Shown here piece after piece: positions 23,394 to 57,273 of a DNA stretch of 64,000 bases. Both the position numbers and the translations under genes were made by a program. The stretch is from Demequina litoralis. GTDB lineage: Bacteria; Actinomycetota; Actinomycetes; Actinomycetales; Demequinaceae. Numbering within the stretch: the stretch's first letter is position 1; each line of letters begins with the position of its first letter. Below the pieces are notes generated by a model that was not told the DNA's origin, made no database searches, and saw only the letters and a list, made by a program, of their open reading frames with translations. The DNA lies in the NCBI RefSeq assembly GCF_030418455.1, contig NZ_JAUHPW010000004.1, positions 1 through 64,000 of the forward strand. Direction: 5' to 3'.

Positions 23394-24767
23394 CTACTTG
23401 CCGGAGCGCTCCTCTTCGTACACGTAGCCGTAGCGGCCGTAGCCGTACGCGTCGGGCCCGCGTGACGGAAGCATCGAGAGCACGAGGCCGGAGACATGGG
23501 CGCCGACGGTCTCGAGCGACTGGAGCGCGCTGTCGAGCTGCGGCGCATGGGTCCTACCTGCGGCGACGATGAGGACCGCTCCGCCCACGAGTTTCGCCAG
23601 GACCGCGGCGTCCGTGACAGGAAGGAGCGGCGGCGCGTCGTAGAGGACGACGTCGAAGCGGGCATCGAGCTGCTTGATGAGCTCGTCCATGCGGGAGGAG
23701 CCGAGCAGCTCGGACGGGTTCGGCGGGATCGAGCCGGACGGCAGGAGGTGGAGCTCGCTGTGGCCCCAACGCTGGATCGCCTGCTCGAGGTCGAGACGCC
23801 CGATGAGCACATCGGTGAGCCCGACGGAGGCCTCGATGCCCATGTACTTGGCCATCTTGGGGCGGCGGAGGTCCGCGCCGACCAGCAGCACGCGCGCCCC
23901 CGCATCGGCGAGAGTGATGGCGAGGTTGGCAGCCGTCGTGGACTTGCCCTCCGACGGAACCGACGAGGTGATGACGAAGCTGCGGGTCTCTCGCTCTGTA
24001 TCGAGGAACTGAAGGTTGGTGCGCAGCGTGCGGAAGGACTCGGCGCGGGGGCTGCGGGCGTCCTCGTGGACGATGAGCGGGCGCTGCTTCGCCTTGGGAT
24101 CGAAGACGATGCCGCCGAGCACGGGAGCATCGGTGAGGCGCTCGAGGTCGCGCTCGCCGCGGATGCGGGTGTCGAGCGTCGCGCGAAGCAGCGCAATGCC
24201 GACGCCGAGCGCGAGTCCGAGCAGCAGGCCGAGCGCGGTGTTGAGGGTCTTGTTGGGAGTGATCGGGTACTGGGGGACCTCGGCCTCCTGCACAACCGCG
24301 AGGCTCACGGGTGAGCCCTCGGAGGCGTCGGTGGTCTCGATGTCCTCGACCACGCCGATGAGCTGGTTCGCGGCTTCCGTGGCAAGCGAGGCGGCGAACA
24401 CGGGGTCGGAGTCCGACACCGAGATGTCGATCACCGAGGTGTTGAGCGGCGTCGACGCGGAGATCTTCCCGCGGAGCTGCGCGACGCTCATGTCGAGGTG
24501 CAGCGACTCGATCGTGGGCTGGAGGACCGCCGAGGTGGAGATGAGGTCGGCGTAGGTCTTGACGCGCTGCTGGGTGAAGCTGCTACCGACGGCCAGTTCG
24601 GAAACGGAAGAGCCGCCTGACGTCGATACGAAGACCTTTGACGAGGCGGAGTAGCTCGGGGTCGACACCATCGAGTAGGCGAAGCCGGCGCTCGTACCGA
24701 GGACCGTCAGCAGGAGGATCAGGATCCAGTTCTTGCGAAGAATCCGGAGGTAGTCCTGTAGCTCCAC
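23394..24767 (-). CDS. Wzz/BY-kinase fusion: chain-length regulator and tyrosine kinase (copy 2)
   Basis: Encodes 457 residues. The GTG start, preceded by AGGGAGA, gives VELQDYLRILRKNW. Two membrane helices flank the Wzz domain; the kinase has VPSEGKSTTAAN near residue 270, LLVGADLRRPKM, and VVLYDAPPLLP. The C-terminus is a compact tyrosine cluster, AYGYGRYGYVYEEE (six Tyr), the standard autophosphorylation tail, in contrast to the long acidic extension of copy 1. It is divergent from the second sugar transferase gene, with about 130 bases between them that must hold both promoters. Confidence 0.94.
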   Translation of the reverse strand: MELQDYLRILRKNWILILLLTVLGTSAGFAYSMVSTPSYSASSKVFVSTSGGSSVSELAVGSSFTQQRVKTYADLISTSAVLQPTIESLHLDMSVAQLRGKISASTPLNTSVIDISVSDSDPVFAASLATEAANQLIGVVEDIETTDASEGSPVSLAVVQEAEVPQYPITPNKTLNTALGLLLGLALGVGIALLRATLDTRIRGERDLERLTDAPVLGGIVFDPKAKQRPLIVHEDARSPRAESFRTLRTNLQFLDTERETRSFVITSSVPSEGKSTTAANLAITLADAGARVLLVGADLRRPKMAKYMGIEASVGLTDVLIGRLDLEQAIQRWGHSELHLLPSGSIPPNPSELLGSSRMDELIKQLDARFDVVLYDAPPLLPVTDAAVLAKLVGGAVLIVAAGRTHAPQLDSALQSLETVGAHVSGLVLSMLPSRGPDAYGYGRYGYVYEEERSGK

Positions 24768-24895: not shown

Positions 24896-26380
24896 ATGAA
24901 GGCCATGGGGGGCGAGGCGCTTCGGCGCGCTTCGAAGCAGAGGATGTTCGGCACGCGCGGGTGGGCGCGCAAGTACGAGGCTCGGCTGTTCCTCACGGAC
25001 GTGGTCGTGGTCGCGCTCGTCATGGTTGGCGCCCACGCGGTCCGCTTCGGGTGGGATCCGTTCGTCGGCGTCACCGGGGACGACTCTCCCGCCTACTGGC
25101 AGGTCACCGTGATCGTCGCCGCGCTCTGGGTGCTGCAGCTGGGCTGGACCCGGTCGCGTGAGGCCCTCGTGCTCGGACACGGGCCTCAGGAGTTCCAGCG
25201 GGTGCTGCTCGCCTCGTGGCACACCTTCACGATCGTCGCGATCGTCGGCTTCCTGACCCAGTGGCATGTCAGCCGCGGGTATCTGCTCTTCGCCATTCCT
25301 CTGGGAACGATCGCGCTGGCGGTCTACCGGGCCGCGTGGCGTGCGTGGATGCACACGCAGCGTGACCGCGGCGAGCTGCTGGCGCAGGTCATCGTCGTGG
25401 GACCGATGCTCACCTCGCAACAGTTGATCCGCCGCATTCAGCGCTCGCCCCGAGCCGGCTACTCCGTGATCGGCGCATGCCTGCCGGCCGGTCACCGCTT
25501 CGTCGACGAGGACATGCAGGACGTCCCGCTCCTGGGCACTCTCGATGAGGCCGCGGAAGTCGCGAAGCGGGAGGACGCGGAGTACGTGCTGCTGTCTGGT
25601 ACCGACGCAATGTCGCTGAGGGAGTCACGTCAACTCGGTTGGGAGCTGGAGGGCACCGATATCGGACTGATCGTGGCGCCCGCGATGGTCGACGTGGCCG
25701 GCCCTCGGGTGTCGATGAGCCCTGTCGAGGGTCTGCCGCTCCTTCACGTGGACATCCCCCGCTTCGAGGGCGGCAAGTACTACCTCAAGGAGATTGGCGA
25801 CCGTCTGGCCGCGTTCACCCTCCTCGCGCTGGGCGCGCTTCCCATGCTCGTCGTCGCCGCGCTCATCAAGATCACCAGCCCGGGCCCGGTGTTCTTCCGC
25901 CAGGAGCGCATCGGTCGTGACCACGAGCCATTCGCGATGTTGAAGTTCCGCTCCATGTACGTCGATGCGGAAAAGCGGCTCGAGGAGCTGCGCGAGCGCC
26001 AGCGCGCCGAGGGCAACGAGGTGCTGTTCAAGATGAAGGATGACCCGCGCGTCACATCGATCGGCCGGCTACTGCGGCGCTTCAGCGTCGATGAGGTGCC
26101 GCAGCTCATCAATGTCCTCAAGGGCGACATGTCCATCGTCGGCCCGCGCCCGCCGCTCCGGTCCGAGGTCGACCAGTGGGACGATGCGCGCGTCGCGCGT
26201 CGCCAGTTGGTGAAGCCGGGCATCACCGGGCTGTGGCAGGTGAGCGGCCGCAGCGACCTGTCCTGGGACGAGAGCGTCCGCCTCGACCTCTACTACACCG
26301 AGAACTGGAGCCTCGCCGGCGACGCCATCATCGTGCTCCGCACGGTCGGCGCGATCCTGTTCGGGCGCGGCGCATACTGA
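24896..26380 (+). CDS. polyprenyl-phosphate sugar-1-phosphate transferase (initiating enzyme, copy 2)
   Basis: Encodes 494 residues with the same architecture as the 7278 protein: N-terminal membrane helices, CoA-binding-like middle, and a C-terminal catalytic domain with FFRQERIGRDHEPFAMLKFR near residue 332, DEVPQLINVLKGDMSIVGPR, and GITGLWQVSGRSDL. Many blocks are shared word for word with copy 1, so the two are recent paralogs. The frame is open further upstream; I chose the ATG after a weak CAGGTACC because the upstream part overlaps the divergent kinase gene. It probably starts a second repeat-unit pathway. Confidence 0.92.
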   Translation: MKAMGGEALRRASKQRMFGTRGWARKYEARLFLTDVVVVALVMVGAHAVRFGWDPFVGVTGDDSPAYWQVTVIVAALWVLQLGWTRSREALVLGHGPQEFQRVLLASWHTFTIVAIVGFLTQWHVSRGYLLFAIPLGTIALAVYRAAWRAWMHTQRDRGELLAQVIVVGPMLTSQQLIRRIQRSPRAGYSVIGACLPAGHRFVDEDMQDVPLLGTLDEAAEVAKREDAEYVLLSGTDAMSLRESRQLGWELEGTDIGLIVAPAMVDVAGPRVSMSPVEGLPLLHVDIPRFEGGKYYLKEIGDRLAAFTLLALGALPMLVVAALIKITSPGPVFFRQERIGRDHEPFAMLKFRSMYVDAEKRLEELRERQRAEGNEVLFKMKDDPRVTSIGRLLRRFSVDEVPQLINVLKGDMSIVGPRPPLRSEVDQWDDARVARRQLVKPGITGLWQVSGRSDLSWDESVRLDLYYTENWSLAGDAIIVLRTVGAILFGRGAY

Positions 26381-26422: not shown

Positions 26423-28186
26423 GTGGCCCCCCAACGACACTCGTCCTCGCGCACGCCTCGTCGCCTCTGGCGCTGGCTGGGGGCCGTTTCCGTCGCGGCG
26501 TTCGTCATCGCGGCGGCTGCCCTCGCGTGGGACGGCTACCGGTTGCTCCGTGCGAAGGACGAACTTGCCACGCACGCGGCGGCAGCGCAGTCGGCGATCG
26601 GCGAGCGCGACGCAACCACGCTCGTCGCCGAGGCGGCCGCACTTGAGTCTGCCGCGCGAACGTTCGCGGCTGCAACCGACGGGCCCCAGTGGTGGCTGGC
26701 CGCGCACCTGCCGTGGGTGGGGGATCAAGCGGTTCCACTCCAGCGGGCAGGGGCTGCCGTCGATGAGGTCGCGGAAGGGGCACTGAGTCCTCTCGCCTCT
26801 CTGGGTGACCTGTCTGCATTGGAGGCCCCGGAGTTCGTCGACGGTCGCATCGATCCCTACCTGCTCGAGCCCTACCGGGCGACGCTCTCCGACGCAGCGG
26901 AAGTACTCGCCGACCAGGTCCATAACCTCGAGACGACGGATCTCGAAGGCACCGTCTCCGCCGTGCGCGATCCGTTCCTCGACCTGGCGGACCAGCTGGC
27001 GACCGTCAGCGAACTCGTCAACGGCGCGCACGTCGCGGCCGAGGTGCTCCCGACCATGCTGGGCGGCGAGGACGTGCGGACCTATCTGGTGATGGTGCAG
27101 AACAATGCGGAGCCCAGGACGACCGGCGGGATTCCCGGCGCCGTCCTCGAGGTGACAGTTGACGACGGTGTGGTCTCGTTGGAGCGCTACGCGACCGCGA
27201 ACTCGATGATCGACCGCACAGAGCCCGTCACGCTCACGGAGGACGAGCTACGCATCTTCGGGCGGCGCATGGCGGTCTATCCGCAGAACGTGAACTTCAC
27301 GCCGGAGTACCCCCGATCCGCACAGCTCATGAGCGAGTTCTGGGCGGCCGAGTATGGCGAGGTTGCTGACGGCATCCTCTCGATCGACCCGGTGGCGCTT
27401 GGCTACATGCTTGTAGGCGCTCCCGCAACCGAGGTGGGCCCGTTCTCCATCACCGGTGACAATCTCGCCGAGATCATGCTCCGCGACTCGTACCTGGAAT
27501 ACCCCGAACCTCGCGACCAGGACGCTTTCTTCGTTCGCGCCTCGGCCGAGCTCTTCGGGCGGCTCGTGGGCGGGCAGGCGCGGGCGGTGAGCGGCATCGA
27601 GCGTGCGATCGACGAGGCACGATTCATGGCGTGGTCCGCGGATTCCGCGGAGCAGGCGCTGCTGGCCAGCACGGCGGTCGGCGGAGCGTTCCTCGAGGGT
27701 GGCTCCGCTCTGGGTGTCTTCGTGAACGACGGCTCTGGCGCCAAGATCGGCTACTACGTCGACGTTCACACCGACGTGGTCGACCATCTGTGCACCGACG
27801 GCAGCCTCGCCGGCCAGACCGTGACGGTGACGCTCGCCCACACCTTCGCGGGCGACGTCGACGGGCTGCCGGATTACGTCGCTACGGGTGCGGCGAACTA
27901 CCCGGACGGCGAGTTCCATGCGAACGTCCGGCTGTTCCCCGCGACCGGAATGGGGGTGACCTCCCTCGAGCGGGACGGCGAGCCCTCGGGGATCAACCCT
28001 GAGACGCTCGGCGGGAGATCGATCGCTTCTGCGCGCGTCGCGCTGCTGCCCGGTGAGTCTACGGGCCTCGTCTTCGAGGTCGCGGCCAATGTGTCCGGAT
28101 TGCGGGAGCTCGACCTCGTCGTCACCCCTGGACCGAAACCTAATGTTTACAGCACCAGGTCCGATGATCTACTCGACGGCTGTTAA
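26423..28186 (+). CDS. DUF4012 membrane-anchored protein (copy 2)
   Basis: Encodes 587 residues from GTG, the same length as the 19511 paralog. A basic start and one membrane helix (about residues 19-38) precede the extracytoplasmic domain; the signature VMVQNNAEPRTTGGIPGAVL lies near residue 226. Conserved blocks shared with copy 1 include NVNFTPEYPRSAQLMSEFW and FVNDGSGAKIGYYV. It stands 42 bases after the second sugar transferase, whereas copy 1 follows a Wzz/BY-kinase. The family has no established activity. Its role in presenting or anchoring the polymer is inferred only from this repeated linkage. Confidence 0.88.
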   Translation: MAPQRHSSSRTPRRLWRWLGAVSVAAFVIAAAALAWDGYRLLRAKDELATHAAAAQSAIGERDATTLVAEAAALESAARTFAAATDGPQWWLAAHLPWVGDQAVPLQRAGAAVDEVAEGALSPLASLGDLSALEAPEFVDGRIDPYLLEPYRATLSDAAEVLADQVHNLETTDLEGTVSAVRDPFLDLADQLATVSELVNGAHVAAEVLPTMLGGEDVRTYLVMVQNNAEPRTTGGIPGAVLEVTVDDGVVSLERYATANSMIDRTEPVTLTEDELRIFGRRMAVYPQNVNFTPEYPRSAQLMSEFWAAEYGEVADGILSIDPVALGYMLVGAPATEVGPFSITGDNLAEIMLRDSYLEYPEPRDQDAFFVRASAELFGRLVGGQARAVSGIERAIDEARFMAWSADSAEQALLASTAVGGAFLEGGSALGVFVNDGSGAKIGYYVDVHTDVVDHLCTDGSLAGQTVTVTLAHTFAGDVDGLPDYVATGAANYPDGEFHANVRLFPATGMGVTSLERDGEPSGINPETLGGRSIASARVALLPGESTGLVFEVAANVSGLRELDLVVTPGPKPNVYSTRSDDLLDGC

Positions 28187-28824: not shown

Positions 28825-29026
28825 TCAGCCGCGGATGTGTGCGGCGTTGTCGAGGTACCAGGCGTAGGTGCAGCGCAGGCCTTCCTCGAGCGTGATCTGC
28901 GCGGTCCAGCCGAGCCCTGCGAGGTGGGAGACGTCGAGGAGCTTTTGCGGGGTGCCGTCGGGCTTGGTGGTGTCCCACTCGGTGGTGCCGTGGAAGCCGG
29001 TGACGGTAGCGATGGTCTCGGCGATC
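28825..29026 (-). pseudogene. truncated second copy of GDP-L-fucose synthase (3' end only)
   Basis: The last 66 or so codons of an fcl gene, ending AYWLD-like residues and AAHIRG, closely match the end of the intact fcl at 21275. Conserved words include [20 protein letters not shown] and [13 protein letters not shown]. The homology stops abruptly at 29026, exactly where the left inverted repeat of an IS3-family element begins, so the 5' four fifths were removed by the element or by a deletion next to it. It has no start codon of its own and cannot make an active enzyme. It shows that a second fucose pathway or a duplicated module once stood here. Confidence 0.9.
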
Positions 29027-29085
29027 GGGTCTGCCCCAGCATCGGTTGACTCTGACCGCCACGGATCTCGGTCCGTGCTGGAAGG

Positions 29086-29376
29086 ATGTTTCCCGTGCCC
29101 AAGCCCTATCACGCGGAGTTCCGTCGTGATGTCGTCGCGGTCGCCCGTCAGGGCGGCTCGATCGCGCAGATTGCGAAGGACTTCGGCATCACCGAGTCGT
29201 GCCTGCGCAACTGGTTGAAGAAGGCCGACGTCGAGGACGGCGTCCGTCCCGGCGTCGTGGCAGAGGAATCGGCCCAGATGCGTGAGTTGAAGAAGCGCAA
29301 CCGTCAGCTCGAAGAAGAGGTCGAGATCCTCAGGAGGGCCGCGGCGTACTTCGCCAAGTCGATCTCCCCAAAATGA
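29086..29376 (+). CDS. IS3-family transposase orfA
   Basis: Encodes 96 residues. Helix-turn-helix [19 protein letters not shown] near residues 23-45, then a leucine-zipper segment [20 protein letters not shown]. It is the DNA-binding half of the transposase. Its stop overlaps the ATG of orfB (ATGA, after CCCCAAAA), so orfB can be made by coupling or by slippage on the A run. A GTG three codons in is an alternative start. Confidence 0.88.
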
Positions 29377-29969
29377 CGTACCCGCTGGTCCTTGACCTTG
29401 CCGCCGACGGCGTCCCCGTCGCGGTGACCTGCCGGGTGCTGGGCTCTTCCAAGCAGGCTTTCTACAAGTGGAAGGCCAACCCGCTCACGGCGGCCGACTA
29501 CGAGCGGCGTTACCTGATCAACGCCGCCCTCGACGTCCATGCCGACGATCCCGAGTTCGGCTACCGGTTCATCGCCGACGAGCTCCAAGCGCTCGGCCTC
29601 GAGGTGTCACGCAACACGGTCCACTCGCTGTGCAAGGAAGCGGGCATCATAGCTGCCGTGCACCGTCGCAGGGGCTCGGGCAAGAAGGCCGGTCCGCCCG
29701 TCCACGACGACCAAGTCCAGCGCGTCTTCACCGCCGACGCCCCGGACCGCGTGTGGCTGACCGACATCACCGAGCACTGGACCGGCGACGGCAAGCTGTA
29801 CCTGTGCGCGATCAAGGACGTCTTCTCGAACCGTATCGTGGGCTACTCCATCGATAGCCGGAAGAAGTCCTCGCTGGCGGTCGCGGCGCTCGAGCAGGCC
29901 GTCGCCCGGCGCGCCCTCATGGGTGCTGATCTGAGCGATCTGACGTGCCACTCTTAAAGGGGTAGCCAG

Positions 29970-31465
29970 GGCGGATTCAACTGGTCGTCGCAACACCTCG
30001 TGTGGGAGGTGTACGGCAGTGGCAACGAAGCATTGGGATGCGAAGACGAGCGATGTGCCCAAGGATGCTCGCCGACAGTGGCGAGCGGATCGAGCGTTGC
30101 GTCCGCCGATGCGCTCGCCCGGGCGGCCCGAGCCCTCGCGAGCGGTCCAGCGGCAGTTCTGGCGACTGATCGCGACGGGCATCACCTCGGCTGAAGCGGC
30201 GCTGAAGGTCGGCGTGTCTGTGCCGGTCGGGATGCGCTGGTTTCGCCACGCTGGCGGCATGCCGCCGATCAGTCTGGCCGAGCCCTCGGGCCGGTATTTG
30301 TCGTTCGCCGAGCGCGAGGAGATCGCGTTGCTCCACGTGCAGAAGGTCGGGGTGCGTGACATCGCCCGCCGGCTGGGACGCGATCCGTCGACGATCTCGC
30401 GCGAACTGCGCCGCAACGCGGCCACGCGTAGCGGCAAGAGCGAGTATCGGGCGCTGGTGGCGCAGTGGAAGGCCCAGCAGGCCGCGAAGCGCCCCAAGAG
30501 CGCGAAACTCGTCGTCAACCCGCGCCTGCGCGCGTACGTGCAGGAGCGCTTGTCGGGAAAGGTGCGCCGTCCCGACGGCATGGCCGTGGACGGTTCGACA
30601 CCACCGCCATGGAAGGGGCTGAACAAGCCCCATCGGGCCGATCGACGGTGGGCGTTGGCGTGGAGCCCTGAGCAGATCTCGCACCGGCTCAAGGTCGACT
30701 TCCCCGATGATGAGTCCATGCGCATCAGCCCCGAAGTGATCTACCAGTCGCTGTTCATCGAAGGCCGCGGCGCGCTCAAACGTGAGCTCGTCACGTGCCT
30801 GCGCACGGGGCGAGCATTGCGCCAGCCGCGCCAGCGCACCCGGAACAAGGCCGAGGGTCACGTCACCGCCGACGTGGTCTTGTCCGAACGGCCGGCCGAG
30901 GCCGCCGACCGTGCCGTACCCGGGCACTGGGAGGGCGACCTGATCATCGGGACGGGTCGCTCGGCGATCGGCACCCTCGTCGAGCGCAAGAGCCGCACCG
31001 TCCTGTTGGTCCACCTTCCCCGCATGGACGGCTGGGGCGAGAAGCCGTAGGTGAAGAACGGTCCATCGCTGGGTGGCTACGGCGCGATCGCGATGAATGC
31101 CGCCCTATCGGCGTCGCTGACGACGCTGCCCGAGCAGCTGCGCAAGACCCTGACCTGGGATCGCGGGAAGGAACTGTCCGGGCACGCCCAGTTCGCATTC
31201 GAGACGGGCACGAAGGTGTACTTCGCGGACCCGCACTCGCCGTGGCAGCGGCCCACGAACGAGAACACCAACGGGGTCCTCCGCCAGTACTTCCCGAAGG
31301 GAACCGATCTGTCCCGCTGGTCGGCGGACGAACTTGAGGCAGTCGCCCTGGCGGTCAACAACCGACCTCGGAAGGTCCTCGGCTGGAAGACACCGGCCGA
31401 GGTCTTCGAGGAACAACTACAGTCAGTTCAACAACCAGGTGTTGCTTCGACCGGTTGAACTCGCC
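29970..31465 (+). mobile_element. IS30-family element nested in the IS3 orfB
   Basis: 1496 bases bounded by imperfect inverted repeats of about 29 bases: left GGCGGATTCAACTGGTCG, right (reverse strand) GGCGAGTTCAACCGGTCG. A three-base target duplication, CAG, is present at 29967-29969 and 31466-31468, and removing the element restores the reading frame of orfB. This proves that it entered after the IS3 copy. Confidence 0.9.
30019..31458 (+). pseudogene. IS30-family transposase with an in-frame TAG
   Basis: A frame of 479 codons interrupted once, by TAG at 31048-31050. Upstream: a helix-turn-helix, IARRLGRDPSTISRELRRN, and the first catalytic Asp in GHWEGDLIIG. Downstream: the second Asp in TWDRGKELSGH and the Glu in PTNENTNGVLRQYFPKG. 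The stop stands between the catalytic residues, in GEKP-stop-VKNG, where relatives usually have Gln, so a CAG-to-TAG change is the simplest origin. The frame is otherwise intact, so the loss is recent. Inactive unless the stop is read through. Confidence 0.87.
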
Positions 31466-31858
31466 CAGTTCCGCTCCAGGCGTTTCGTGGTGGCACTTAA
31501 CGCTCACGGGATCCGCGGCTCGATGGGCCGCGTCGGTTCTGCCGGCGACAACGCCGCGATGGAGTCGTTCTTCTCGCTGCTCCAGAAGAACGTCCTCAAC
31601 CGCAAACGGTGGGAGTCCCGCGAGGAGTTACGCCTCGCGATCATCACCTGGATCGAGAAGACCCACCACCGACGCCGCCGGCAAGCACGTCTTGGCCGGA
31701 TGACGCCCATCGGGTTCGAGGCCGTTTACGCTACCCAACGCCTGGCACTCGCGGCCTCACCACCCCGGTCAACCGATCTTGGGGCAGACCCCAGTGTGAG
31801 AAATTCCATCCTGGGGGACCTTGACCCCTACCCCCGACCACTCACCGCCGAGTCGCCA

Positions 31859-32821
31859 CTAGAGCCTCATCTGTGAAGAGCCAGTTTGATGCGCTGCTCG
31901 ACAACCGCCCGAATTTGATGAACGCTTGGAGGGATAATACCTCCCGCAACGCCTGTCGCGCCGGTATTTTCGAATCTGCGGCCAACTCGAAACGAGGTTA
32001 GCCGCCCTCCGTACGCCACGTCCACCTCTTGCCGCCAAATATGCCAATCGGTCACGCACGATGCCAACTAATCCACTATCTGAAGTATAAAACGGCGGAA
32101 ATTGCGGGAGCATAGCGCCAGCGCCGAGCCTCCATCCGACAACCCTGTTTGCCACGTTGCCGCCGTGCACCACCTGCATCCACATAGCCTCGGACGTCTC
32201 GACATCAACGACTTGCGCATGTGCGCCAAGTCGCGGATGCTGGTCCATGAAGACTGTCTTTGGAGGAAGCCCGGCGAAGTTCATTTCATACAGTGACACA
32301 AAGGGGTTCAAAGGATAATCGCGCCTGTACACCTTCCCATCCGAGACCTGTATTCCGTGTAAGAAATTGACGACGCAGAGCTCTTGGCTATCAAATCGTG
32401 CTTGCACCTCGTCGATATAATTCTCAGCGAGGGCGTCATCGCTATCCAGCCGAGTCGTGATCAGAGCATTGCCTTTTGAGTAGTGCGCCACTACCGCCGA
32501 ACAGACTTCGGGTGTGAATGGCGCGGAAATGTAGTGCACTCTAAGAAAGTCGTTTTGCCCCTCTAGTTCCGCAAGTTCCTTCCGACACCAGTCGGGATTA
32601 TCTTCATCGAGCAACAGGACCCACGTATAATTCATTGAAGTCTGGCGCTGAAGTGAAGGCAAAGGATACTTGCGCAGCAATTCCATGCGTTCATGAAGCC
32701 AACGTTCCCTATCGGCTGGCCCATCAATATCGTCCATTTTCACGCTGAATCGAGTGATCACCAAATGATCGAAAGAATCATCACGGCCAACGTGAACTTC
32801 ACGGGTGCCGGACTCCACCAT
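31859..32821 (-). CDS. glycosyltransferase, putative rhamnosyltransferase type
   Basis: Encodes up to 320 residues. Start region FDHLVITRFSVKMD, then WVLLLDEDNPDW near 75, and TRLDSDDALAENYID near 125 with the DxDD metal site: this is the layout of the putative rhamnosyltransferase family (GT-A fold). Base composition is clearly less GC-rich than in the flanking modules, so it is probably acquired. The last 60 or so residues look unnatural (Arg/Ser/Cys-rich), and a better-looking continuation is open in another frame over 31867-32067, so a frameshift near 32000 is possible. It begins 68 bases from the IS3 right end. Confidence 0.65.
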   Translation of the reverse strand: MVESGTREVHVGRDDSFDHLVITRFSVKMDDIDGPADRERWLHERMELLRKYPLPSLQRQTSMNYTWVLLLDEDNPDWCRKELAELEGQNDFLRVHYISAPFTPEVCSAVVAHYSKGNALITTRLDSDDALAENYIDEVQARFDSQELCVVNFLHGIQVSDGKVYRRDYPLNPFVSLYEMNFAGLPPKTVFMDQHPRLGAHAQVVDVETSEAMWMQVVHGGNVANRVVGWRLGAGAMLPQFPPFYTSDSGLVGIVRDRLAYLAARGGRGVRRAANLVSSWPQIRKYRRDRRCGRYYPSKRSSNSGGCRAAHQTGSSQMRL

Positions 32822-33037
32822 TCGTGCCGCCTCTCCATCACTGGCCCACAGACAAGCAAATCATCACTAAGCGCAAACCGCCAAAAGAAGCTTGCGAAAG
32901 CATCGCACTTCGTAGTTGCCGACGCGCGAACTTAGCCTAGTGGACTGATGCGCTCTGGATGCCTTGGATGACCTGCCCCAGGGTTCGGTTACCAGTGGCA
33001 GTGTGTCGGCCAGGCTCGATCTCGAGGAGTCCGGACC

Positions 33038-33334
33038 ATGCCCAAGGCCTATCCGCAAGAGTTCCGTCATCGAGCCGTCGCGCTCGTGAGAGCCGGCCGT
33101 CCGGCCACCGAGGTCGCCCTCAGCCTCGGCATCAGCACGACCTGCTTGCGCAACTGGGTGCGCCAGGATCGTATCGACCACGGCGAGATCGTCGGCCGGT
33201 CGATGACTGAGAGCGCCGAGCTGAAGGGAGCGCGGAAGCGCATCCGTGAGCTCGAACGTGAGGTCGAGGTCCTCAAGGTCGCATCCAAACTGCTGGGTGA
33301 GGACAAGCCCCACCCAAAAGGATCCATCCGGTGA
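33038..33334 (+). CDS. IS3-family transposase orfA
   Basis: Encodes 98 residues. A helix-turn-helix, ATEVALSLGISTTCLRNWV, lies near residues 24-42, followed by a coiled-coil segment KGARKRIRELEREVEVLKVA. The stop overlaps the GTG of orfB (GTGA). It is intact, but its partner is not, so the element cannot move without help from another copy. Confidence 0.87.
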   Translation: MPKAYPQEFRHRAVALVRAGRPATEVALSLGISTTCLRNWVRQDRIDHGEIVGRSMTESAELKGARKRIRELEREVEVLKVASKLLGEDKPHPKGSIR

Positions 33335-34212
33335 TCGACGTCCTCGTCGCCGCCGGACACCCCGTGCTCACCTGCTGCCGGATCCTGGGTGTGTCCAAGC
33401 CCGGCTACTACCGCTACAAGCATCGCCCGACCTCGCCCACGCAGATGCGCCGTGAATAGCTCACCGGTCTCATTCGCGAGTTCCACACCGCCTCCCGCGG
33501 TACGTATGGCTACCGTCGCGTGCATGCGGAGCTGACGATGGGGATGAACGTCAAGGTCAGCGAGCACCTCGTCGGCGACCTCATGGGCCTGGAAGGCATC
33601 TACGGACTGCCAGGACCGACGCGGATCAAGAGGCTGCGCGGCGTCGTCACCGCGGACGACCTCGTCAACCGCAAGTTCCATCGGATGAAGCCCAACGAGC
33701 TGTGGGTCACCGACATCACGCAACATTGGACCCGTGCGGGCTGGCTGTCCTGCTGCTGCGTCCTGGACGCCTTCAGCCGCAAGATCGTCGGCTGGTCCAT
33801 CGACTCCAGCGCCGACACCCGCCTCGTCCTGAACGCCCTCGACATGGCCATCAAGACCCGCGATCCCGCCCCCGGCGGCATCGTTCACGCCGACCACGGA
33901 GCCCAGTTCACCTCGTGGGCATTCGGCAACCGCATCCGCGCCGCAGGCCTCATGCCATAAGTCGGATCCGTCGGCGACGGGCTCGACAACACGATGATCG
34001 AGTCCTTCTGGTCATCCATGCAGATCGAGCTGCTTGACCGTCAGACCTGGAACACCAGAATCGAGCTCGCGAACGCGAGCTTCGAGCACATCGAGATCTG
34101 GCACAACCGCGCCCGGCGCCACCCCAGCATCGGCTACCTCACGCCCATCGACTTCGAACTACAGTCAGAAATGCACGCCATCCCCGCCCGCACGACACAC
34201 GTGATCAGGTAG
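33331..34212 (+). pseudogene. IS3-family transposase orfB with two in-frame stops
   Basis: One frame across 294 codons with TAG at 33457-33459 (codon 43) and TAA at 33958-33960 (codon 210). All three catalytic residues remain: WVTDITQHWT, HADHGAQFTS and TMIESFWSSMQ. At codon 43 relatives usually have Trp (a TGG-to-TAG change would suffice). No frameshift is seen. The protein is therefore split into non-functional pieces, but the decay is slight. Confidence 0.87.
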
Positions 34213-47162: not shown

Positions 47163-48668
47163 ATGGACCTCCAGGACTACATGCGCGTGTTTCGCGCGCG
47201 CTGGGTCGCGATCGTGCTCATCACGGCGCTCGGCGGCGCCGCCGCCTTCGGTTGGACGCTCACCCAGTCCAAGGTCTACACGGCTACCGGATCCGCGATC
47301 ATCACCACTGGTGCAAGCGAGGATCTCGGCAGCGCGCTTGTCGGCGACAACTACGCGAAGTCGCGCGTGAAGAGCTACCTCGACATCGCGAAGTCACGCA
47401 AGGTGGCGGAATACGCGATCGAGGACCTCGGACTCGACTCGAGCCCGGACACGCTCGTCTCGCGCGTGACGGTCAGCAATCCGCTCGACACCGCGGTGCT
47501 GCGAGTCGCTGCCAACGGGTCCAGTCCCGAGGAGGCGCGCGATCTCGTCGAGGCCTGGATCTCCGGCATGACGAAGGCCGTCGCGGACATCGAGAACTCC
47601 GGCGCGGAGGATGGCGACACGCAGTCCGTCGTCGGCCTTCAAACCCTCGACAGCGCTGTCCTGCCCGGCGCACCCTCCAGCCCCAACGTGAATCTCGCCG
47701 TTGCGCTCGGCCTGCTCGTCGGCCTTGCTCTGGGCATCGCCTACTCACTCGTCAAGGCCACCCTCGACCGACTCCTTCGCAAGCCCGAGGACGTCGAGCG
47801 AGAATTCGACATCCCGGTACTTGGCGCACTGCCCTTCGACGACGCGATCGCCAGAAGCGGCGTCGCGCTCGGCCCGTCCGACTTCGCGATGACCGAAGCG
47901 ATCCGCCAGGTCCGCACCAACCTCCAGTTCATGGACGTCGACAACCCGCCCCGCGTGATCGTGGTGACGAGCTCCCTTCCCGGTGACGGCAAGTCGACCA
48001 GCATCATCAAGCTCGCCGACGCGATCGCCGAGTCCGGCCGTGACGTGGTGCTCATCGACGCAGACCTCCGCCGACCGTCAGTGGCGAAGAACCTCGGCCT
48101 CGTCGAGGGCGCGGGCCTCACCGATGTCCTCGTCGGCCGCGCGCGAGCGCAGGACGTGCTCCAGTCCTACGGTTCGACTGACCACTTCTACGTGATGGCC
48201 GCTGGCGCCATCCCGCCCAACCCGTCCGAGCTTCTCGCCTCCGACGCGATGCACAAACTGCTCTACAGCTTCCCTGCCGGTGCGATCGTTCTCATCGACA
48301 CCCCGCCACTCATCCCGGTGACCGATGCGGCGGTCCTTACCGCGCGTACCGACGGTGCGTTGGTGGTGGCCCGGTCCGGGAAGACCACCATCGACCTGCT
48401 CGACCGCGCGCTGCAGAACCTCGATCGCGTTAACGGCCGCGCGCTCGGCATCATCGTCGACGCCATGCCGCGCAAGGGTGCCCACAAGGACGCCTACGCG
48501 TACGACTACACGGCTGGCGATGACCGGAAGCACGGGAAGAACGACGGCGCCGCATCGGTCCCCGCAACGCCACAGCATGCCGTCGCCCGACGTGGCAAGC
48601 ACTACGACGCATTGTCGCTGCCGGGCTGCGACGAAATCGTCGAGCCAGTCGACCGTCCCCGGGCCTGA
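47163..48668 (+). CDS. Wzz/BY-kinase fusion: chain-length regulator and tyrosine kinase (copy 3)
   Basis: Encodes 501 residues from the ATG giving MDLQDYMRVFRARW, after GAGGGCACGG. Two membrane helices flank the Wzz domain; the kinase has SLPGDGKSTSIIKLADAIAE near residue 272, VVLIDADLRRPSV, and IVLIDTPPLIPVTDA. The C-terminal tail has only three clustered Tyr residues (AYAYDY), followed by about 45 charged residues. It is less similar to copies 1 and 2 than they are to each other. Its stop is one base from the start of the pseudophosphatase/HprK gene, so kinase and pseudophosphatase are co-expressed. Confidence 0.92.
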   Translation: MDLQDYMRVFRARWVAIVLITALGGAAAFGWTLTQSKVYTATGSAIITTGASEDLGSALVGDNYAKSRVKSYLDIAKSRKVAEYAIEDLGLDSSPDTLVSRVTVSNPLDTAVLRVAANGSSPEEARDLVEAWISGMTKAVADIENSGAEDGDTQSVVGLQTLDSAVLPGAPSSPNVNLAVALGLLVGLALGIAYSLVKATLDRLLRKPEDVEREFDIPVLGALPFDDAIARSGVALGPSDFAMTEAIRQVRTNLQFMDVDNPPRVIVVTSSLPGDGKSTSIIKLADAIAESGRDVVLIDADLRRPSVAKNLGLVEGAGLTDVLVGRARAQDVLQSYGSTDHFYVMAAGAIPPNPSELLASDAMHKLLYSFPAGAIVLIDTPPLIPVTDAAVLTARTDGALVVARSGKTTIDLLDRALQNLDRVNGRALGIIVDAMPRKGAHKDAYAYDYTAGDDRKHGKNDGAASVPATPQHAVARRGKHYDALSLPGCDEIVEPVDRPRA

Positions 48669-48669
48669 C

Positions 48670-50067
48670 ATGCCCTGCGAGTCGGACGCCGCGTTCCGCG
48701 TGCTGATCGTCGACGCCACCAACACCGGCCGCTCGGCGGCGGGGGAGCGGCTCCTGCGCAAGCACCTGTGGGCACGCGGCGTAGGCCGCGACCGCATACG
48801 CATCACGTCGGCCGGGCTGAACGCCGACGACGGTGTCGCAATGCAGGATCTCGCGCGCGAGGTGATCCAGGCGCACGGCGGCAGCGCGCAGGGTTTCGCC
48901 GCGCGCTCCCTCAGCGAGGCGATGGTCGAGGCGACGGACCTCTTCGTCGTCGGCACCGGCTACGAGCGTGATGAGTTGGTGCGTCGCCACCCCCGCACCC
49001 TGGGCCGCTCGTTCACCATGTCGGAAGTGGCTCGCCTCTACGAGGGGCTCGGCCTCGCCTCGCCACTGCACGAGCATCCCACCGTGCTCGAGCGGCTCCG
49101 CACCGGACGCGACGTGCCCACCGACTGGGACCTGCCGCCGTGGGAGTCGCTCGAGGAGCGAGCGCACGCCGTGGGTGCCCGGATTAACGAGGCCGCCGAT
49201 CGGATCGCTGACATCTGGGCCGCGACGGCGCCCACGTCGTCTGCACCCGTGGCGCCGCCTGGGGGCGGTGAGGGGGCCTTCCTGGTCGACGCTTTCGGCG
49301 TGACCGTCGCAGTGCATTGCGAGGGAGCGGGCGGCGACGCGTTGTCCGACGCGGGGCGGCGTGCCTGGAGCCGCTGCCTCGTCGAGCGCGGCGACGCGGA
49401 CGTGCGGGTCGACGTCATGGTCGGTCCTGATCCCGAAGTGCTAACTGCAGCGCGCGCCCGGGGTGTGCTCGCCTATCCCGACGTCGACCGTGCACTGCAC
49501 CATCTCTCGCCGGCCATCACGGTGCGCGCGATCGAGCAGCGTGTCGGTTCGCTCGTGATGCTCCACGCCGCAGGGCTCGCCTCGCCCACGGGTGACGTCG
49601 TGGGCTTTGTCGCACCGTCCGGAACCGGCAAGACGACGATCGCGCGCACGCTCGGCGCGCACTACGCGTATGTCACCGACGAGACCCTCGCGGTCGACGT
49701 CGGACGCACGGTGCTTCCGTACCCGAAGCCGCTCTCGGTGCTCGAATCCGCCGGACCGATGAAGGATCAGTGGGGGCCCGAATCGCTCGACCTCCTCCCG
49801 CCACCGCCGGGACGGCTGCGGCTGGCACGGCTCGCTCTGGTCGAACGCGTACAGGATGCGCCGTCCTTGCCGGTGGTCGAGGAGCTGCCGCTACTGCACG
49901 GACTCGCGTTCCTCGCCGAGCAGGTGTCGTACCTGTCCCGCCTGCCGCTGCAGCTCCACACGCTCGCGGACCTGGTCGAGTCCATTGGTGGCCTCGTGCG
50001 GATCCGCTACCGCGAGGCGCGCGACCTGCTCCCGCTCATGCCGTCGCTCTTCGAGGGGGCGCGATGA
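48670..50067 (+). CDS. inactive low-MW tyrosine phosphatase domain fused to HPr-kinase-like domain
   Basis: Encodes 465 residues. Residues 8-180 follow the low-molecular-weight phosphatase fold (FRVLIVDATNTGRSAAGERL, ITSAGLNADDGVAMQDLARE, LFVVGTGYERDELV, LGRSFTMSEVARL). The catalytic CX5R loop reads D15-A-T-N-T-G-R21: the nucleophilic Cys is Asp, while Asn18 and Arg21 remain. After a Pro/Gly linker, residues 200-465 form an HprK/PEP-carboxykinase-like domain with Walker A VAPSGTGKTTIARTL near 317 and the acidic YVTDETLAV. I infer a kinase that uses the dead phosphatase as a phospho-recognition module. It starts one base after the BY-kinase gene and overlaps the PqqD-like gene by four. Confidence 0.85.
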   Translation: MPCESDAAFRVLIVDATNTGRSAAGERLLRKHLWARGVGRDRIRITSAGLNADDGVAMQDLAREVIQAHGGSAQGFAARSLSEAMVEATDLFVVGTGYERDELVRRHPRTLGRSFTMSEVARLYEGLGLASPLHEHPTVLERLRTGRDVPTDWDLPPWESLEERAHAVGARINEAADRIADIWAATAPTSSAPVAPPGGGEGAFLVDAFGVTVAVHCEGAGGDALSDAGRRAWSRCLVERGDADVRVDVMVGPDPEVLTAARARGVLAYPDVDRALHHLSPAITVRAIEQRVGSLVMLHAAGLASPTGDVVGFVAPSGTGKTTIARTLGAHYAYVTDETLAVDVGRTVLPYPKPLSVLESAGPMKDQWGPESLDLLPPPPGRLRLARLALVERVQDAPSLPVVEELPLLHGLAFLAEQVSYLSRLPLQLHTLADLVESIGGLVRIRYREARDLLPLMPSLFEGAR

Positions 50068-50357
50068 GCGACGCCTACCGCCTTCGGGACGATGCGGTGG
50101 TCCGGTCCTCGTGGGACGACGCACTCGAGCGCGGCGGTGAGATGCTCGTGCTCGCAGGCAACGACGTCACGTTGCTCTCGCCCCTTGCGGCGGAGGCAGT
50201 CCTGGCGGCGCGACATGGGATCACTGTGGTGGCGCTGGCCGAGCGGTTGGTGTGTGCCTTCGGTGAGCCGGAGGGTGGGGACGCCGGAGACATGGCGCGC
50301 GAGGTCGTGCTCGCGCTCGTGCCGCGCGGCGTGATGACGTTGGAGTCGGCAGAGTGA
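50064..50357 (+). CDS. PqqD-like small protein (HPr-rel-A type)
   Basis: Encodes 97 residues. RLRDDAVVRSSWDDALE opens the protein, then GNDVTLLSPLAAEAVLAARH near residue 35, and a helical C-terminus. This is the layout of the PqqD-related proteins that accompany HprK-related kinases; PqqD/RRE folds bind peptides. It overlaps the kinase gene by four bases and the next gene by four (GTGA). It is shorter on canonical PqqD residues than the second copy, so the family call rests on size, context and fold pattern. Confidence 0.6.
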   Translation: MSDAYRLRDDAVVRSSWDDALERGGEMLVLAGNDVTLLSPLAAEAVLAARHGITVVALAERLVCAFGEPEGGDAGDMAREVVLALVPRGVMTLESAE

Positions 50358-51313
50358 CTGACAGCGCGCCGTTTGCCCTGGTGGAAGCAGTGCCGCTCGC
50401 GCATGCGCTCGCGATCGGCGTCGCGCGTCGGGAAGCTGTGCGCGCGCTCGTGGTGAAGGGACCGAGTGCGTCGCTGCACGGGCTCCGTCCCGAACGGCTG
50501 AGCGCCGACGCAGACGTGCTGATCTCACCCGACGGCTTCGCGGCATATATCGGGGCGCTCGGACGATGTGGGTGGCATGAGCGCCCGATTGGTGATGCGC
50601 CCGGTCCGAAGGCGTCGCATTCGATCGCCTTGATCCACGACGGCTGGCCGTGCGACATCGATGCGCACGTGCAGTTCCCGGGGTTCCTCGCTCCGGTCCA
50701 AGCGGTATTCGACGAACTCTGGTCGCGCCGCGAGCCGTTGATACTCGCCGGACTCGAGGTCGACACGGTCGACCGCGCGGGCGCGTTCCTGGTGGCCGCG
50801 CTTCACGCGCTGCGCACGCCCGCGCAGACCGCGCGGCACGAGGCAGAGGTGCGTGGTCTCGTCAGCCGGGTGATCCCCGCGTTGGACGCGGCCGCGCGCG
50901 CAGATATTGTCGCGCTCGCGATCGCCACAGGCGCTATCGACACCGCGCGGCCGGTACTTGCGCGGCTCGGTACGTCGCTCCCCGCGCCGATGCCGCACGG
51001 GCGCGATGCCGCCCTCGACGCGTGGCGAGCGCGCGTGGGAGGGCGAGGCGAGATGCTCGCGCAGTGGCTCCCGATAGTGTCTCGCGCGCGATGGCGTGAC
51101 CGGCCCGGACTGGTGGCGCGGATGATCTGGCCGACCGACGCATCGTTCCGCAAGTCCCACCCCGAGACGCCTCTCGGGCGGGCGGCGTCCGTGCGCGGTC
51201 GATTGGTGCGGGTTGGTCGCGGATTCCGCGCGACGCCGCGGGTCCTGTGGGGCCGCATTCTCGCGCGGAGCGGCGTGACCGACGGTTCGTTGCTGAACGA
51301 GGATCCGCGATGA
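50354..51313 (+). CDS. nucleotidyltransferase family protein (NTP_transf_5-like)
   Basis: Encodes 319 residues from GTG. The core ALVVKGPSASLHGLRPERLS near residue 34, with SADADVLISPDGFAAY (DxD), and WPCDIDAHVQFPG near 95 match the uncharacterised nucleotidyltransferases found beside HprK-like kinases and PqqD proteins in lasso-peptide and exopolysaccharide gene sets. The C-terminal half is helical and basic. The reaction, transfer of a nucleotide or another NTP-derived group to a protein, peptide or sugar, is not established for this subfamily. Confidence 0.72.
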   Translation: MTDSAPFALVEAVPLAHALAIGVARREAVRALVVKGPSASLHGLRPERLSADADVLISPDGFAAYIGALGRCGWHERPIGDAPGPKASHSIALIHDGWPCDIDAHVQFPGFLAPVQAVFDELWSRREPLILAGLEVDTVDRAGAFLVAALHALRTPAQTARHEAEVRGLVSRVIPALDAAARADIVALAIATGAIDTARPVLARLGTSLPAPMPHGRDAALDAWRARVGGRGEMLAQWLPIVSRARWRDRPGLVARMIWPTDASFRKSHPETPLGRAASVRGRLVRVGRGFRATPRVLWGRILARSGVTDGSLLNEDPR

Positions 51314-51588
51314 GCGAGAACCTCGCCCGGGCCGACGGGCTCGCGGAGATCGTCCGCGACGATGTCGCTGTTGTACTCAATCTGCGGCATCTGGCGGAAC
51401 AGCAGGCGCCGCACCTGTTCAGGGGCTCGTCGTTCGAGATCTGGACGCGGGTCGACGGTACGCGCACCGTGGAGAAGATCGCGGACGAGCTCGCGGAGGC
51501 CTACGAAGCGCCCCGCGACGTCGTCGCTGTCGACGTGAAGGCATTCGTCGCGCAGCTGGTGGAGCTGGGCCTTGTGCTGGAGGGGTGA
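51310..51588 (+). CDS. PqqD-family protein (RRE-like)
   Basis: Encodes 92 residues. The ATG overlaps the preceding stop by four bases. VRDDVAVVLNLRHLAEQQAP, then LFRGSSFEIWTRVDGTRTVE, and a C-terminal helix FVAQLVELGLVLEG are typical of PqqD: an initial beta strand, the central W-x-x-V/I-D-G-x-R-T block, and a last helix ending L-x-x-x-G-L-V/L. In RiPP systems PqqD/RRE domains bind leader peptides. Two PqqD-like genes in one operon suggest two recognition events or a heterodimer. Confidence 0.8.
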   Translation: MSENLARADGLAEIVRDDVAVVLNLRHLAEQQAPHLFRGSSFEIWTRVDGTRTVEKIADELAEAYEAPRDVVAVDVKAFVAQLVELGLVLEG

Positions 51589-51667
51589 ACCTCGCCGCGC
51601 GGCACCTTGGCAGCCCGGGTTGTGCTCGGCAGCCTTCCAATGAACCGATGAGCGTCCGGGGGGACTC

Positions 51668-51817
51668 ATGCGGAAGAGACGGCACCGTTCCTATACGCCG
51701 ATGGGGCACCGCAACTGGCTGTTGCGTGAACACAGCGGGATTCCCGGCTCGGCGATCATCGCTTCGCTCGCGCTCGTGGGGGCGATGCTCGGCTACGCCG
51801 TGATGCACGCCTCGTGA
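51668..51817 (+). CDS. 49-residue basic peptide with a C-terminal membrane helix
   Basis: The ATG follows GTCCGGGGGGACTC, a strong ribosome site. The product starts with a basic, His/Arg-rich segment (MRKRRHRSYTPMGHRN), continues LLREHSGIPGSA, and ends in a hydrophobic helix IIASLALVGAMLGYAVMHAS. About four fifths of third positions are G or C, so it looks coding. A second open frame over 51585-51803, starting from a GTG overlapping the PqqD stop, gives an Arg/Ser/Cys-rich product with poorer codon bias and is less likely. Possible substrate or membrane tether of the PqqD/HprK system; unknown. Confidence 0.5.
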   Translation: MRKRRHRSYTPMGHRNWLLREHSGIPGSAIIASLALVGAMLGYAVMHAS

Positions 51818-51894
51818 GTCGCGACGTCGCGATTTCGTGCGTCGAGAACCGCAGTCACGTGTGCATTCTGCCGTTATTCTCTACGACGTGAGTG

Positions 51895-51910
51895 CTCGTT
51901 GAGGGACGAG
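51895..51910 (+). promoter_or_regulatory. leader hairpin with TGAGGG loop
   Basis: CTCGT (51895-51899) and ACGAG (51906-51910) enclose TGAGGG, 20 bases before the ATG at 51931. Stem bases are those of the 6814-6832 hairpin. TATTCT at 51875-51880 is a plausible -10 box and would start the message just before the hairpin; TTGAGGGG at 51921 is the ribosome site. Confidence 0.5.
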
Positions 51911-51930
51911 TATGCCGATCTTGAGGGGTA

Positions 51931-52482
51931 ATGATGGCAATCGAGTCGACGAACACAAGCGACAGCGCAGGAATCTCGCGCCGTCGATTGGTGCAGGGTG
52001 CCGCGTGGGCGACGCCGGCGATCCTTATCGCCACGGCGGCGCCGGCCGGGGCGAACGGCTCGGGGCAGTTTGCCCCTACCGTTTCCGCCGTTAGCGCGAC
52101 CTATGCCGCGAGCGGCGGGCTGACGGTTCAGCGTGCCGACGACGCGAGTGCCTACGCGGTCGACTCCCTCGAGATTCAGATCGAAACAAACAAGGTGCCT
52201 GACCCGGACAAGAAGTTCGAGTACTTCCCGGTGGCGGGCGAGGACACGAGCGATGACTGGTCGACGCAGATCGAAAACAACGTCGAAGGCAAGGGTAATG
52301 CCAAGCATTCTGCGAACGCGCTAGTCTCGATGAAGCTCACTGGATCGCTCAACGACGGTGGCGCGTCAGCCCTCACCTGGGCATTCACCAACCTCGGCAC
52401 GATCACGAAGGTGACCTTGCGAGCGACCTGGGGTCCGAGCAACACCGTGATCGGTCCGCTGACGCTCTACCCGTCGGCCTAG
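51931..52482 (+). CDS. Tat-exported protein of unknown function (copy 1)
   Basis: Encodes 183 residues. Tat signal: SRRRLVQGAAWATPAIL with the twin arginines at about residues 16-18, then ATAAPAGANG. The mature part (about 140 residues) is Ser/Thr/Val/Asp-rich without Cys, with FEYFPVAGEDTSDDWSTQIE near residue 95, a likely all-beta extracellular domain. A second protein with the same signal peptide is encoded at 56731. It stands downstream of the pseudophosphatase/HprK-PqqD set but has its own hairpin leader. Export folded through Tat is inferred from the signal. Confidence 0.82.
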   Translation: MMAIESTNTSDSAGISRRRLVQGAAWATPAILIATAAPAGANGSGQFAPTVSAVSATYAASGGLTVQRADDASAYAVDSLEIQIETNKVPDPDKKFEYFPVAGEDTSDDWSTQIENNVEGKGNAKHSANALVSMKLTGSLNDGGASALTWAFTNLGTITKVTLRATWGPSNTVIGPLTLYPSA

Positions 52483-56730: not shown

Positions 56731-57273
56731 ATGACCCTCGAGAACTCCGCCACGACTTCTGGTTCCCTCTCGCGCCGGCGCATCATTCAGGGTGCCGCGT
56801 GGGTGACGCCTGCGATCCTGATCGCGACCGCGTCGCCGCCGGCGGCCGCGAGCGTCACGGACGTGCCGGAAGTCACGCTCGACCTTGTCGCGTCCAAGGC
56901 AGCGAACGACGGGGTGAGCGCCAAGGTCGCGGTCGCAATCGGCGCCGGACCTGCGATGTCCTACCTCGAAACGGGCTTCACCGTCACGGTCGCCGTGCCC
57001 CGCGGATCGGCGACGCTCATCTCAGCCACCGCGCCTACCGGAGATTGGATCCTCCCGCGGGTTCCGGGCAAAAACGCGAAGTTGGTCAACGTCGTGTACT
57101 CCGGGCCGCGCATGAACGCGGGTTCAGGAGCGTCCACCTCGTTCACGCTTGTCTGGCAGAGCGCGCTTAGCAACGGCAAGCGCAAGGTCAGCGCAGCGCT
57201 CCTCGGGAACTCGGGCGCCGGGACGGGCACTGTCTCGCTCGCGGCCGAGAAGACGATGCCCGCCCGGGTCTAG
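56731..57273 (+). CDS. Tat-exported protein of unknown function (copy 2)
   Basis: Encodes 180 residues. The signal SRRRIIQGAAWVTPAIL, then ATASPPAAAS, is nearly the same as in the 51931 protein, including Q-G-A-A-W-x-T-P-A-I-L-I-A-T-A. The mature domain differs: EVTLDLVASKAANDGVSAKV and ETGFTVTVAVPRGSATLISA suggest a beta-sandwich. No Cys and no membrane anchor. The ATG is preceded by GAGGAAGACAGG at a distance. It is convergent with metX, 4 bases away. A family of exported proteins sharing an export signal but not a body is the main point. Confidence 0.8.
   Translation: MTLENSATTSGSLSRRRIIQGAAWVTPAILIATASPPAAASVTDVPEVTLDLVASKAANDGVSAKVAVAIGAGPAMSYLETGFTVTVAVPRGSATLISATAPTGDWILPRVPGKNAKLVNVVYSGPRMNAGSGASTSFTLVWQSALSNGKRKVSAALLGNSGAGTGTVSLAAEKTMPARV

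Follow-up and report, generated by a model that had tools for sequence, protein, structure and literature searches.

What do an HprK-like kinase, two PqqD-like proteins and a nucleotidyltransferase-like protein act on when they are encoded together inside a polysaccharide locus? The question is raised by the first 64,000 nucleotides of contig NZ_JAUHPW010000004.1 of Demequina litoralis (assembly GCF_030418455.1; genome size 3.02 Mb), hereafter called the window, in which four overlapping genes at 48670-51588 follow a gene for a Wzz/BY-kinase. The original prediction was a non-lasso system tied to the BY-kinase, which would recognise a peptide or a phosphotyrosine tail and phosphorylate or nucleotidylate it. 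A conserved, non-lasso system of this kind, which probably recognises a peptide and phosphorylates or further modifies it, was supported, but our data shifted its best substrate candidates to proteins exported by the twin-arginine (Tat) pathway. We propose, at slightly better than an even chance of being right, that these genes specify a Tat-linked, RRE-guided protein-tagging system, in which serine phosphorylation would be followed by a further modification. The genes concerned, all on the forward strand, are as follows (LMW, low-molecular-weight).

47163..48668, +, Wzz/BY-kinase with a Tyr-containing C-terminal tail (NCBIfam eps_fam 7e-38, over cut-off; Pfam Wzz)
48670..50067, +, fusion of a pseudo-LMW tyrosine phosphatase (residues ~5-189) and an HprK-like kinase (residues ~204-463)
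50064..50357, +, RRE-1, PqqD-like domain adjoining the kinase (predicted RRE-like fold; profile match to RRE-2)
50354..51313, +, NTP_transf_5-like protein, hereafter NTP5 (weak Pfam match; invariant Asp residues; co-occurrence with the tag)
51310..51588, +, RRE-2, PqqD family (Pfam PqqD 9.8e-14; profile matches to TbiB1, 9x90 and 9x8z)
51668..51817, +, 49-residue membrane peptide (49-codon open reading frame), kept only in close relatives
51931..52482, +, tagged Tat protein 1, twin-arginine (Trp codon 52006-52008; Pro codon 52015-52017; candidate Ser-19 codon 52060-52062)
56731..57273, +, tagged Tat protein 2, twin-arginine (Trp codon 56800-56802; candidate Ser-18 codon 56851-56853)

The layout agreed with the first description of it. 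The fusion, RRE-1, NTP5 and RRE-2 genes are joined by three 4-base overlaps, each gene beginning within the final four bases of the one before it; a single base separates the BY-kinase gene from the fusion, making a single run of five genes (47163-51588), and the 49-codon reading frame and a Tat protein come after. The second tagged Tat protein (56731-57273) was absent from that description.

The small twin-arginine proteins adjoin the module, mostly downstream, and number 1-7 per locus. Their signals share a tag, RR-x(7-9)-W-x-x-P-[AV]-[ILV], and then, with no gaps in between, have a Ser 17 or 18 residues behind the Trp (position 18 or 19 if the Trp is 1). Across 21 Demequina loci, we collected 72 tag signals on the basis of their Trp and Pro, the Ser playing no part in the selection, and all 72 had the Ser at 18 or 19 (63 at 18 only, 7 at 19 only and 2 at both). 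A wider contig scan, in which the best 80 of 82 relatives were kept, gave 18 loci from named Demequina and 62 others, among them Nocardioides, Agromyces, Pseudoclavibacter, Subtercola, Kocuria, Rothia, Arthrobacter and Actinomyces. With a similar Ser-blind pattern, these 62 loci yielded 51 signals in 31 loci, and the Ser was found in 49 of the 51; the two without it were a signal with Thr (L094) and a sequence that was not signal-like (L135). These 51 were what was left of 71 pattern matches after removal of 20, of which 14 lacked the Trp and 6 had it; five of these 6 were not signal-like, and the sixth (L091) was signal-like with Ser at 17 and 19. A further 60 tag hits from 27 other genomes carried the Ser in every case, which is not independent support since they were drawn from the top of a profile containing the Ser column. 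As judged from the sequence, the candidate Ser likely falls close behind the signal-cleavage site (AxA).

As a control we took 30 twin-arginine hits from 18 module-negative genomes, 28 of which were readable. None of the 28 had W..P in the signal, and in 2 of them a Ser lay as far from the Arg pair as it does in the tags, as against 72 of 72 for the tag set measured in the same way; the control is small and partly orthologous, with most hits under the Pfam cut-off and a few not signal-like.

The tag followed the enzymes across genomes. An order-level sample of 218 genomes was searched with three profiles (kinase half, E<=1e-12; tag, E<=1e-6; NTP5, E<=1e-12), and 43, 40 and 39 genomes were positive for kinase, tag and NTP5, respectively. 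Kinase and tag were found together in 37 genomes, the kinase without the tag in 6, the tag without the kinase in 3 and neither in 172 (Fisher p=6e-32); the corresponding figures for NTP5 and tag were 37, 2, 3 and 176 (p=7e-36), and the tag was present in 37 of the 38 genomes with both enzymes versus 3 of the 180 others (p=4e-37), these p-values being overstated because the genomes and species are related. Leaving Demequina out, the same four counts were 28, 6, 2 and 165 for the kinase and 28, 2, 2 and 169 for NTP5. At the genus level, 16 of 18 kinase genera had the tag, versus none of 57 others (p=2e-14). A class-level sample of 295 genomes held 23 with the kinase (six of them weakly) and 16 with the tag, and all 16 tag carriers had the kinase; half of these 16 were also in the order-level sample. 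Among 47 genomes of the Demequinaceae, the tag was found in 22 of 22 kinase genomes and in 1 of the 25 others (G017). The idea that a Tat signal of this type is generic in Actinobacteria was dropped, since the profile found the tag only with the kinase, with three exceptions in the order-level sample and none in the class-level one. The tag protein of the exceptional family member (G017:C8:68113) lies in a Demequina genome with neither a kinase nor an NTP5 match and is either an orphan or the product of a recent loss.

Such a distribution might also arise if W-x-x-P...Ser were a lineage-specific preference of the Tat machinery or of the signal peptidase, the tagged coat proteins being co-inherited with the kinase without being its substrates. 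The kinase would then act on the BY-kinase, on a glycosyltransferase or on a polymer intermediate. Demequina gives this idea some ground, as the tags there are physically linked to the kinase (of 83 tag hits, 77 are no further than 15 kb from the kinase gene) and the BY-kinase is always beside the fusion. In other genera, however, the tags are often spread over several contigs, with up to 14 per genome, and still track the enzymes. Moreover, ordinary RR signals in module-negative genomes lack the pattern, and the motif is the one that RREs bind (PMC13381572). We consider a mere lineage preference unlikely.

To what extent are the enzymes what they were said to be? The dead tyrosine phosphatase was borne out. 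The N-terminal half of the fusion matched Pfam LMWPc (E=1.7e-07), and in the structural model (pLDDT 90) residues ~5-189 adopted the LMWPTP fold (Z ~20), similar to that of Wzb, AmsI and YwlE. Yet its nucleophile Cys was missing in 19 of 19 aligned fusion proteins, replaced by Asp in 16, Gly in 2 and Ser in 1; the P-loop Arg was retained in 16 of the 19. The remainder of the model matched the PEPCK-type kinase fold throughout (Z 15), and in the kinase half every aligned relative retained the P-loop and an Asp-Glu pair. HprK_rel_A (HprK-related kinase A) was matched at E<=0.001 by 24 of 28 kinase relatives, under its curated cut-off, and against TIGR04352 the kinase scored 18.5-19.8 bits for a cut-off of 200. 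HprK was absent among the matches listed for the fusion model, which were filled by phosphatases and PEPCK, and the matches listed for the kinase profile against PDB sequences were mostly ABC-type and other P-loop proteins.

Both PqqD-like assignments were supported, by different routes. RRE-2 matched Pfam PqqD (9.8e-14), and its profile matched crystallised lasso and LPP (linear polyphosphorylated peptide) RREs, namely TbiB1, 9x90 and 9x8z. RRE-1 had no Pfam or NCBIfam match, and its profile matched nothing relevant among PDB sequences; when its model (pLDDT 87) was compared with the PDB, no match reached E<=0.001, but the highest-ranking ones were mostly RRE domains from RiPP enzymes, lasso B1 proteins and PqqD, and its profile matched that of RRE-2 with a probability of 89.5 across 55 columns. 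RRE-2 also gave a weak match to the TIGR04353 system (18 vs 35 bits); the likeness of this locus to HPr-rel-A (TIGR04352/TIGR04353) consists of weak kinase and RRE-2 matches, far under the curated cut-offs. NTP5 matched Pfam NTP_transf_5 weakly (E=0.0023, 18 bits for a 31.2-bit cut-off), and its profile found only MutS among PDB sequences (E ~0.05). Lys35-Gly36, Asp52, Asp54 and Asp103 were invariant in its alignment, and these Asp residues would be the ones expected of an NTP_transf_5-type enzyme.

The gene set is not peculiar to this strain, since it recurs in 20 Demequina relatives besides the window and beyond the genus. In the 47 genomes of the family, the fusion was found in 21 and the kinase half in 22, and matches to all five genes (BY-kinase, fusion, RRE-1, NTP5 and RRE-2) occurred within 15-20 kb in each of the 21 fusion loci, the window among them; the BY-kinase and NTP5 reading frames were broken in one of them (L036), and the NTP5 match was limited to residues 1-206 in another (L044). 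This joint presence is more than chance. Gene order varied, NTP5 and RRE-2 lying ahead of the BY-kinase in many species. RRE-1 came immediately after the fusion in all 21 loci, and RRE-2 adjoined NTP5 in 18 of 21. In the 62 other loci, 61 of which had a strong kinase match (accompanied in the available flanks by a BY-kinase in 37, NTP5 in 32 and a tag signal in 31), RRE-1 was directly behind the kinase in 36 of the 38 loci having it, and RRE-2 beside NTP5 in 18 of the 22 loci having both. Since RRE-1 tracks the kinase and RRE-2 tracks NTP5, each enzyme seems to travel with an RRE of its own.

Some loci departed from this scheme. A fusion match in G017 was rejected as an ordinary LMW phosphatase. 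G040 carried the kinase half without the phosphatase half and with a PqqD-like domain fused at the C terminus (two contigs, L048 and L049). Actinobacterial-like kinase loci also appeared under the names of other phyla, in a record titled Sporosarcina (L082) and in a metagenome-assembled genome titled Armatimonadota (L096), as a result of transfer, mislabelling or contamination.

How might such a kit act on Tat signals? A precedent is provided by the LPPs of Bacillota, described in capsular loci that encode an RRE, the HprK-like LppK, an NTP transferase, a SipW-like peptidase and an exporter (PMC13381572). The RREs bind [Y/W]xxPx[LVIFA] there. LppK phosphorylates a single Ser and does not act on Thr or Tyr; this Ser lies 18 residues beyond the Tyr and three past the point of leader cleavage. 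The loci studied here share with LPP a discrete RRE and an HprK-like kinase beside a polysaccharide locus, where they are joined by a candidate NTP transferase (Pfam match under the cut-off, Asp residues invariant), a [Y/W]xxP motif, and a strict Ser at a spacing of 17 or 18, in a similar position relative to a signal-peptidase-type (AxA) site. They differ by bearing whole Tat-exported proteins instead of precursors of 35-200 residues, two RREs, an added BY-kinase and pseudo-phosphatase, and, in other genera, tags dispersed across the genome, and by belonging to Actinobacteria and not Bacillota. In addition, no SipW-type (archaeal-type) signal peptidase exceeded the cut-off in the genome (best score 32 vs 51.85 bits, on another contig), no MsbA-like/ABC exporter did so among the seven operon-region proteins, and the tags had WxxPx[ILV] and a Ser at 18/19 without HQxIxFET, hence not the full LPP precursor motif YxxPxVLxHQxIxFETxxS. 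For these three reasons the system was not filed as LPP; its mode of action seems to resemble that of LPP, with whole exported proteins as the targets.

A second precedent comes from the phosphorylated and glycosylated lasso peptides paeninodin and pseudomycoidin, in which an HprK-like kinase likewise acts on Ser; the addition of a hexose to the phosphoserine of pseudomycoidin needs PsmN, a nucleotidyltransferase homologue (PMC9266682). The modified Ser is at the C terminus there, whereas it is behind the leader here. The absence of a lasso B2 protease, already stated for the window, extended to the whole genome, PF13471 being unmatched at E<=0.1 (no search was made for a macrolactam cyclase), and a lasso-peptide cluster was rejected on this ground.

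The LPP-like motif, its spacing, the strict Ser and the precedent of PsmN together led us to infer an RRE-guided modification of Tat cargo. Secreted proteins would carry W-x-x-P-x-[ILV] inside the hydrophobic part of their twin-arginine signal, where RRE-1 and RRE-2 would bind it in the cytoplasm. RRE-1 would bring the HprK-like kinase, which would phosphorylate the Ser at 18 or 19, just past the probable cleavage site, and RRE-2 would bring NTP5, which would add a sugar or a nucleotide to the phosphoserine. The modified protein would then leave via Tat and be cut, so that its new N terminus would bear the mark. The Tat pathway carries folded proteins, and TatC is present in the genome, which makes modification before export plausible. 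As a guess for Demequina, the dead phosphatase half may serve as a docking domain that brings the kinase to the phosphorylated BY-kinase tail. Finally, the N-terminal mark might retain the protein in the polysaccharide produced under the adjacent BY-kinase, or join it to that polymer. Such an attachment is likewise guessed from the neighbourhood, as BY-kinases, sugar transferases and a flippase are encoded in the window. The earlier idea of a control of polymer synthesis has accordingly changed into a marking of exported proteins, perhaps for the polymer.

Several observations weigh against this scheme, besides the inflated p-values mentioned above. The gene set, the folds, the tag with its fixed Trp-Ser spacing and the co-occurrence are observations, whereas RRE binding, the chemistry on the tag, the sequence of steps and the link to the polymer are inferences. 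Signals from kinase-holding loci served to train the tag profile, which may therefore miss other tags. In the order-level sample, three genomes (G017, G111 and G230) had the tag without a kinase or NTP5 match, one (G239) had both enzymes without a tag match, and five (G065, G139, G151, G185 and G205) matched the kinase but lacked both an NTP5 and a tag match, perhaps reflecting a different use of HprK-like kinases. The scores of the kinase and NTP5 remain under the curated family cut-offs, and the Ser follows the Trp at either 17 or 18 residues, as against a constant 18 in LPP. The phosphate-binding Arg is lacking in 3 of 19 pseudo-phosphatases, which argues against phosphotyrosine docking in those three.

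The RREs might alternatively be Tat chaperones, guarding the signal in the manner of REMPs, while the kinase and NTP5 would reversibly modify the Ser to regulate export and leave no lasting mark. REMPs are indeed cytoplasmic proteins binding Tat signals before export, as the RREs would be, and known chaperones bind the hydrophobic core of these signals (PMC3316669). Besides, the Ser is near the likely cleavage site, and the LPP peptidase cuts an unphosphorylated precursor poorly (PMC13381572). But the strict co-occurrence of NTP5 and the pairing of a second RRE are left unexplained by chaperoning itself, and REMPs serve cofactor insertion, mostly for one client, whereas here predicted RRE-fold proteins come with a kinase. 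We regard a chaperone role as improbable.

Still another possibility was that the kinase set has the 49-residue membrane peptide or the tail of the BY-kinase as its substrate and controls polymer synthesis in this way, as the gene order in the window and the constant adjacency of the BY-kinase in Demequina might suggest. The original prediction had pointed to this peptide, which did not withstand comparison. It was found in 6 of 21 fusion loci (tblastn E<=0.01), those of the window and five close relatives, and had no W/YxxP motif. Its last residue was S, A, A, A and S in the five aligned sequences and M in L032; as this final Ser is not conserved, the peptide was rejected as the kinase substrate, and from its sequence it is probably not the substrate. 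The distribution of the tag would also be left unexplained, and we hold this possibility to be very improbable. A seventh, weak match to the peptide occurred elsewhere in G022 (L052), in a second cluster ~650 kb from the fusion that comprised an RRE-2-like gene and tag hits, with a BY-kinase nearby.

If RRE-guided tagging is retained, its logic recalls other sorting systems. PEP-CTERM/exosortase and sortase sorting combine a polysaccharide-linked enzyme set with several to many cargo proteins that have a common short signal. Likewise, we find one polysaccharide-linked enzyme set and cargo sharing a short signal; unlike in those systems, the signal is N-terminal, inside the Tat signal, and no transpeptidase was identified, no search having been aimed at one. 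A tentative generalisation, which we would not yet bet on, is that an N-terminal sorting operates in actinobacteria, with the Tat signal as RRE leader and up to a dozen or more different secreted proteins per genome phosphorylated and glycosylated on their first serines behind it and made covalent parts of the exopolysaccharide coat. It would be, with the same reservation, a counterpart of the exosortase and sortase systems that needs no C-terminal signal.

The kit itself has precedents in LPP and in phosphorylated lasso peptides. Its use on Tat cargo was not found in the literature, as none of the matches listed among open-licence PMC papers linked Tat signals with HprK-like kinases or RREs. 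Collectively, the co-occurrence of tag and enzymes across many actinobacteria seems to indicate a so far undescribed means by which surface proteins are marked. If so, Tat signal peptides would double as modification leaders, and the LPP/lasso phosphorylation kit would extend from small peptides to exported proteins and from Bacillota to Actinobacteria. There would also be a testable answer for the presence of HprK-like kinases, PqqD domains and NTP_transf_5 proteins in polysaccharide loci. Furthermore, a role would be given to a class of secreted actinobacterial proteins: of 14 different tagged proteins scanned (10 against Pfam and 10 against NCBIfam), one exceeded a curated cut-off (a putative Ig domain, L100), and 13 had no such match. 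Any genome can be scanned for the tag, and mass spectrometry would read the modification directly.

The rest of the window provided some additional observations. A regular LMW tyrosine phosphatase, with VCTGNICRS and DPY, is encoded on the reverse strand at 11802-12350 and is likely the active partner of the BY-kinases. Sugar-transferase, Wzz/BY-kinase and DUF4012 genes occur in pairs (7278-8747 and 24896-26380; 17703-19478 and 23394-24767; 19511-21274 and 26819-28186), as if the locus had been partially duplicated. Lastly, a reading of the open reading frame list placed transposase-like gene fragments at 28825-34212, within the polysaccharide locus.

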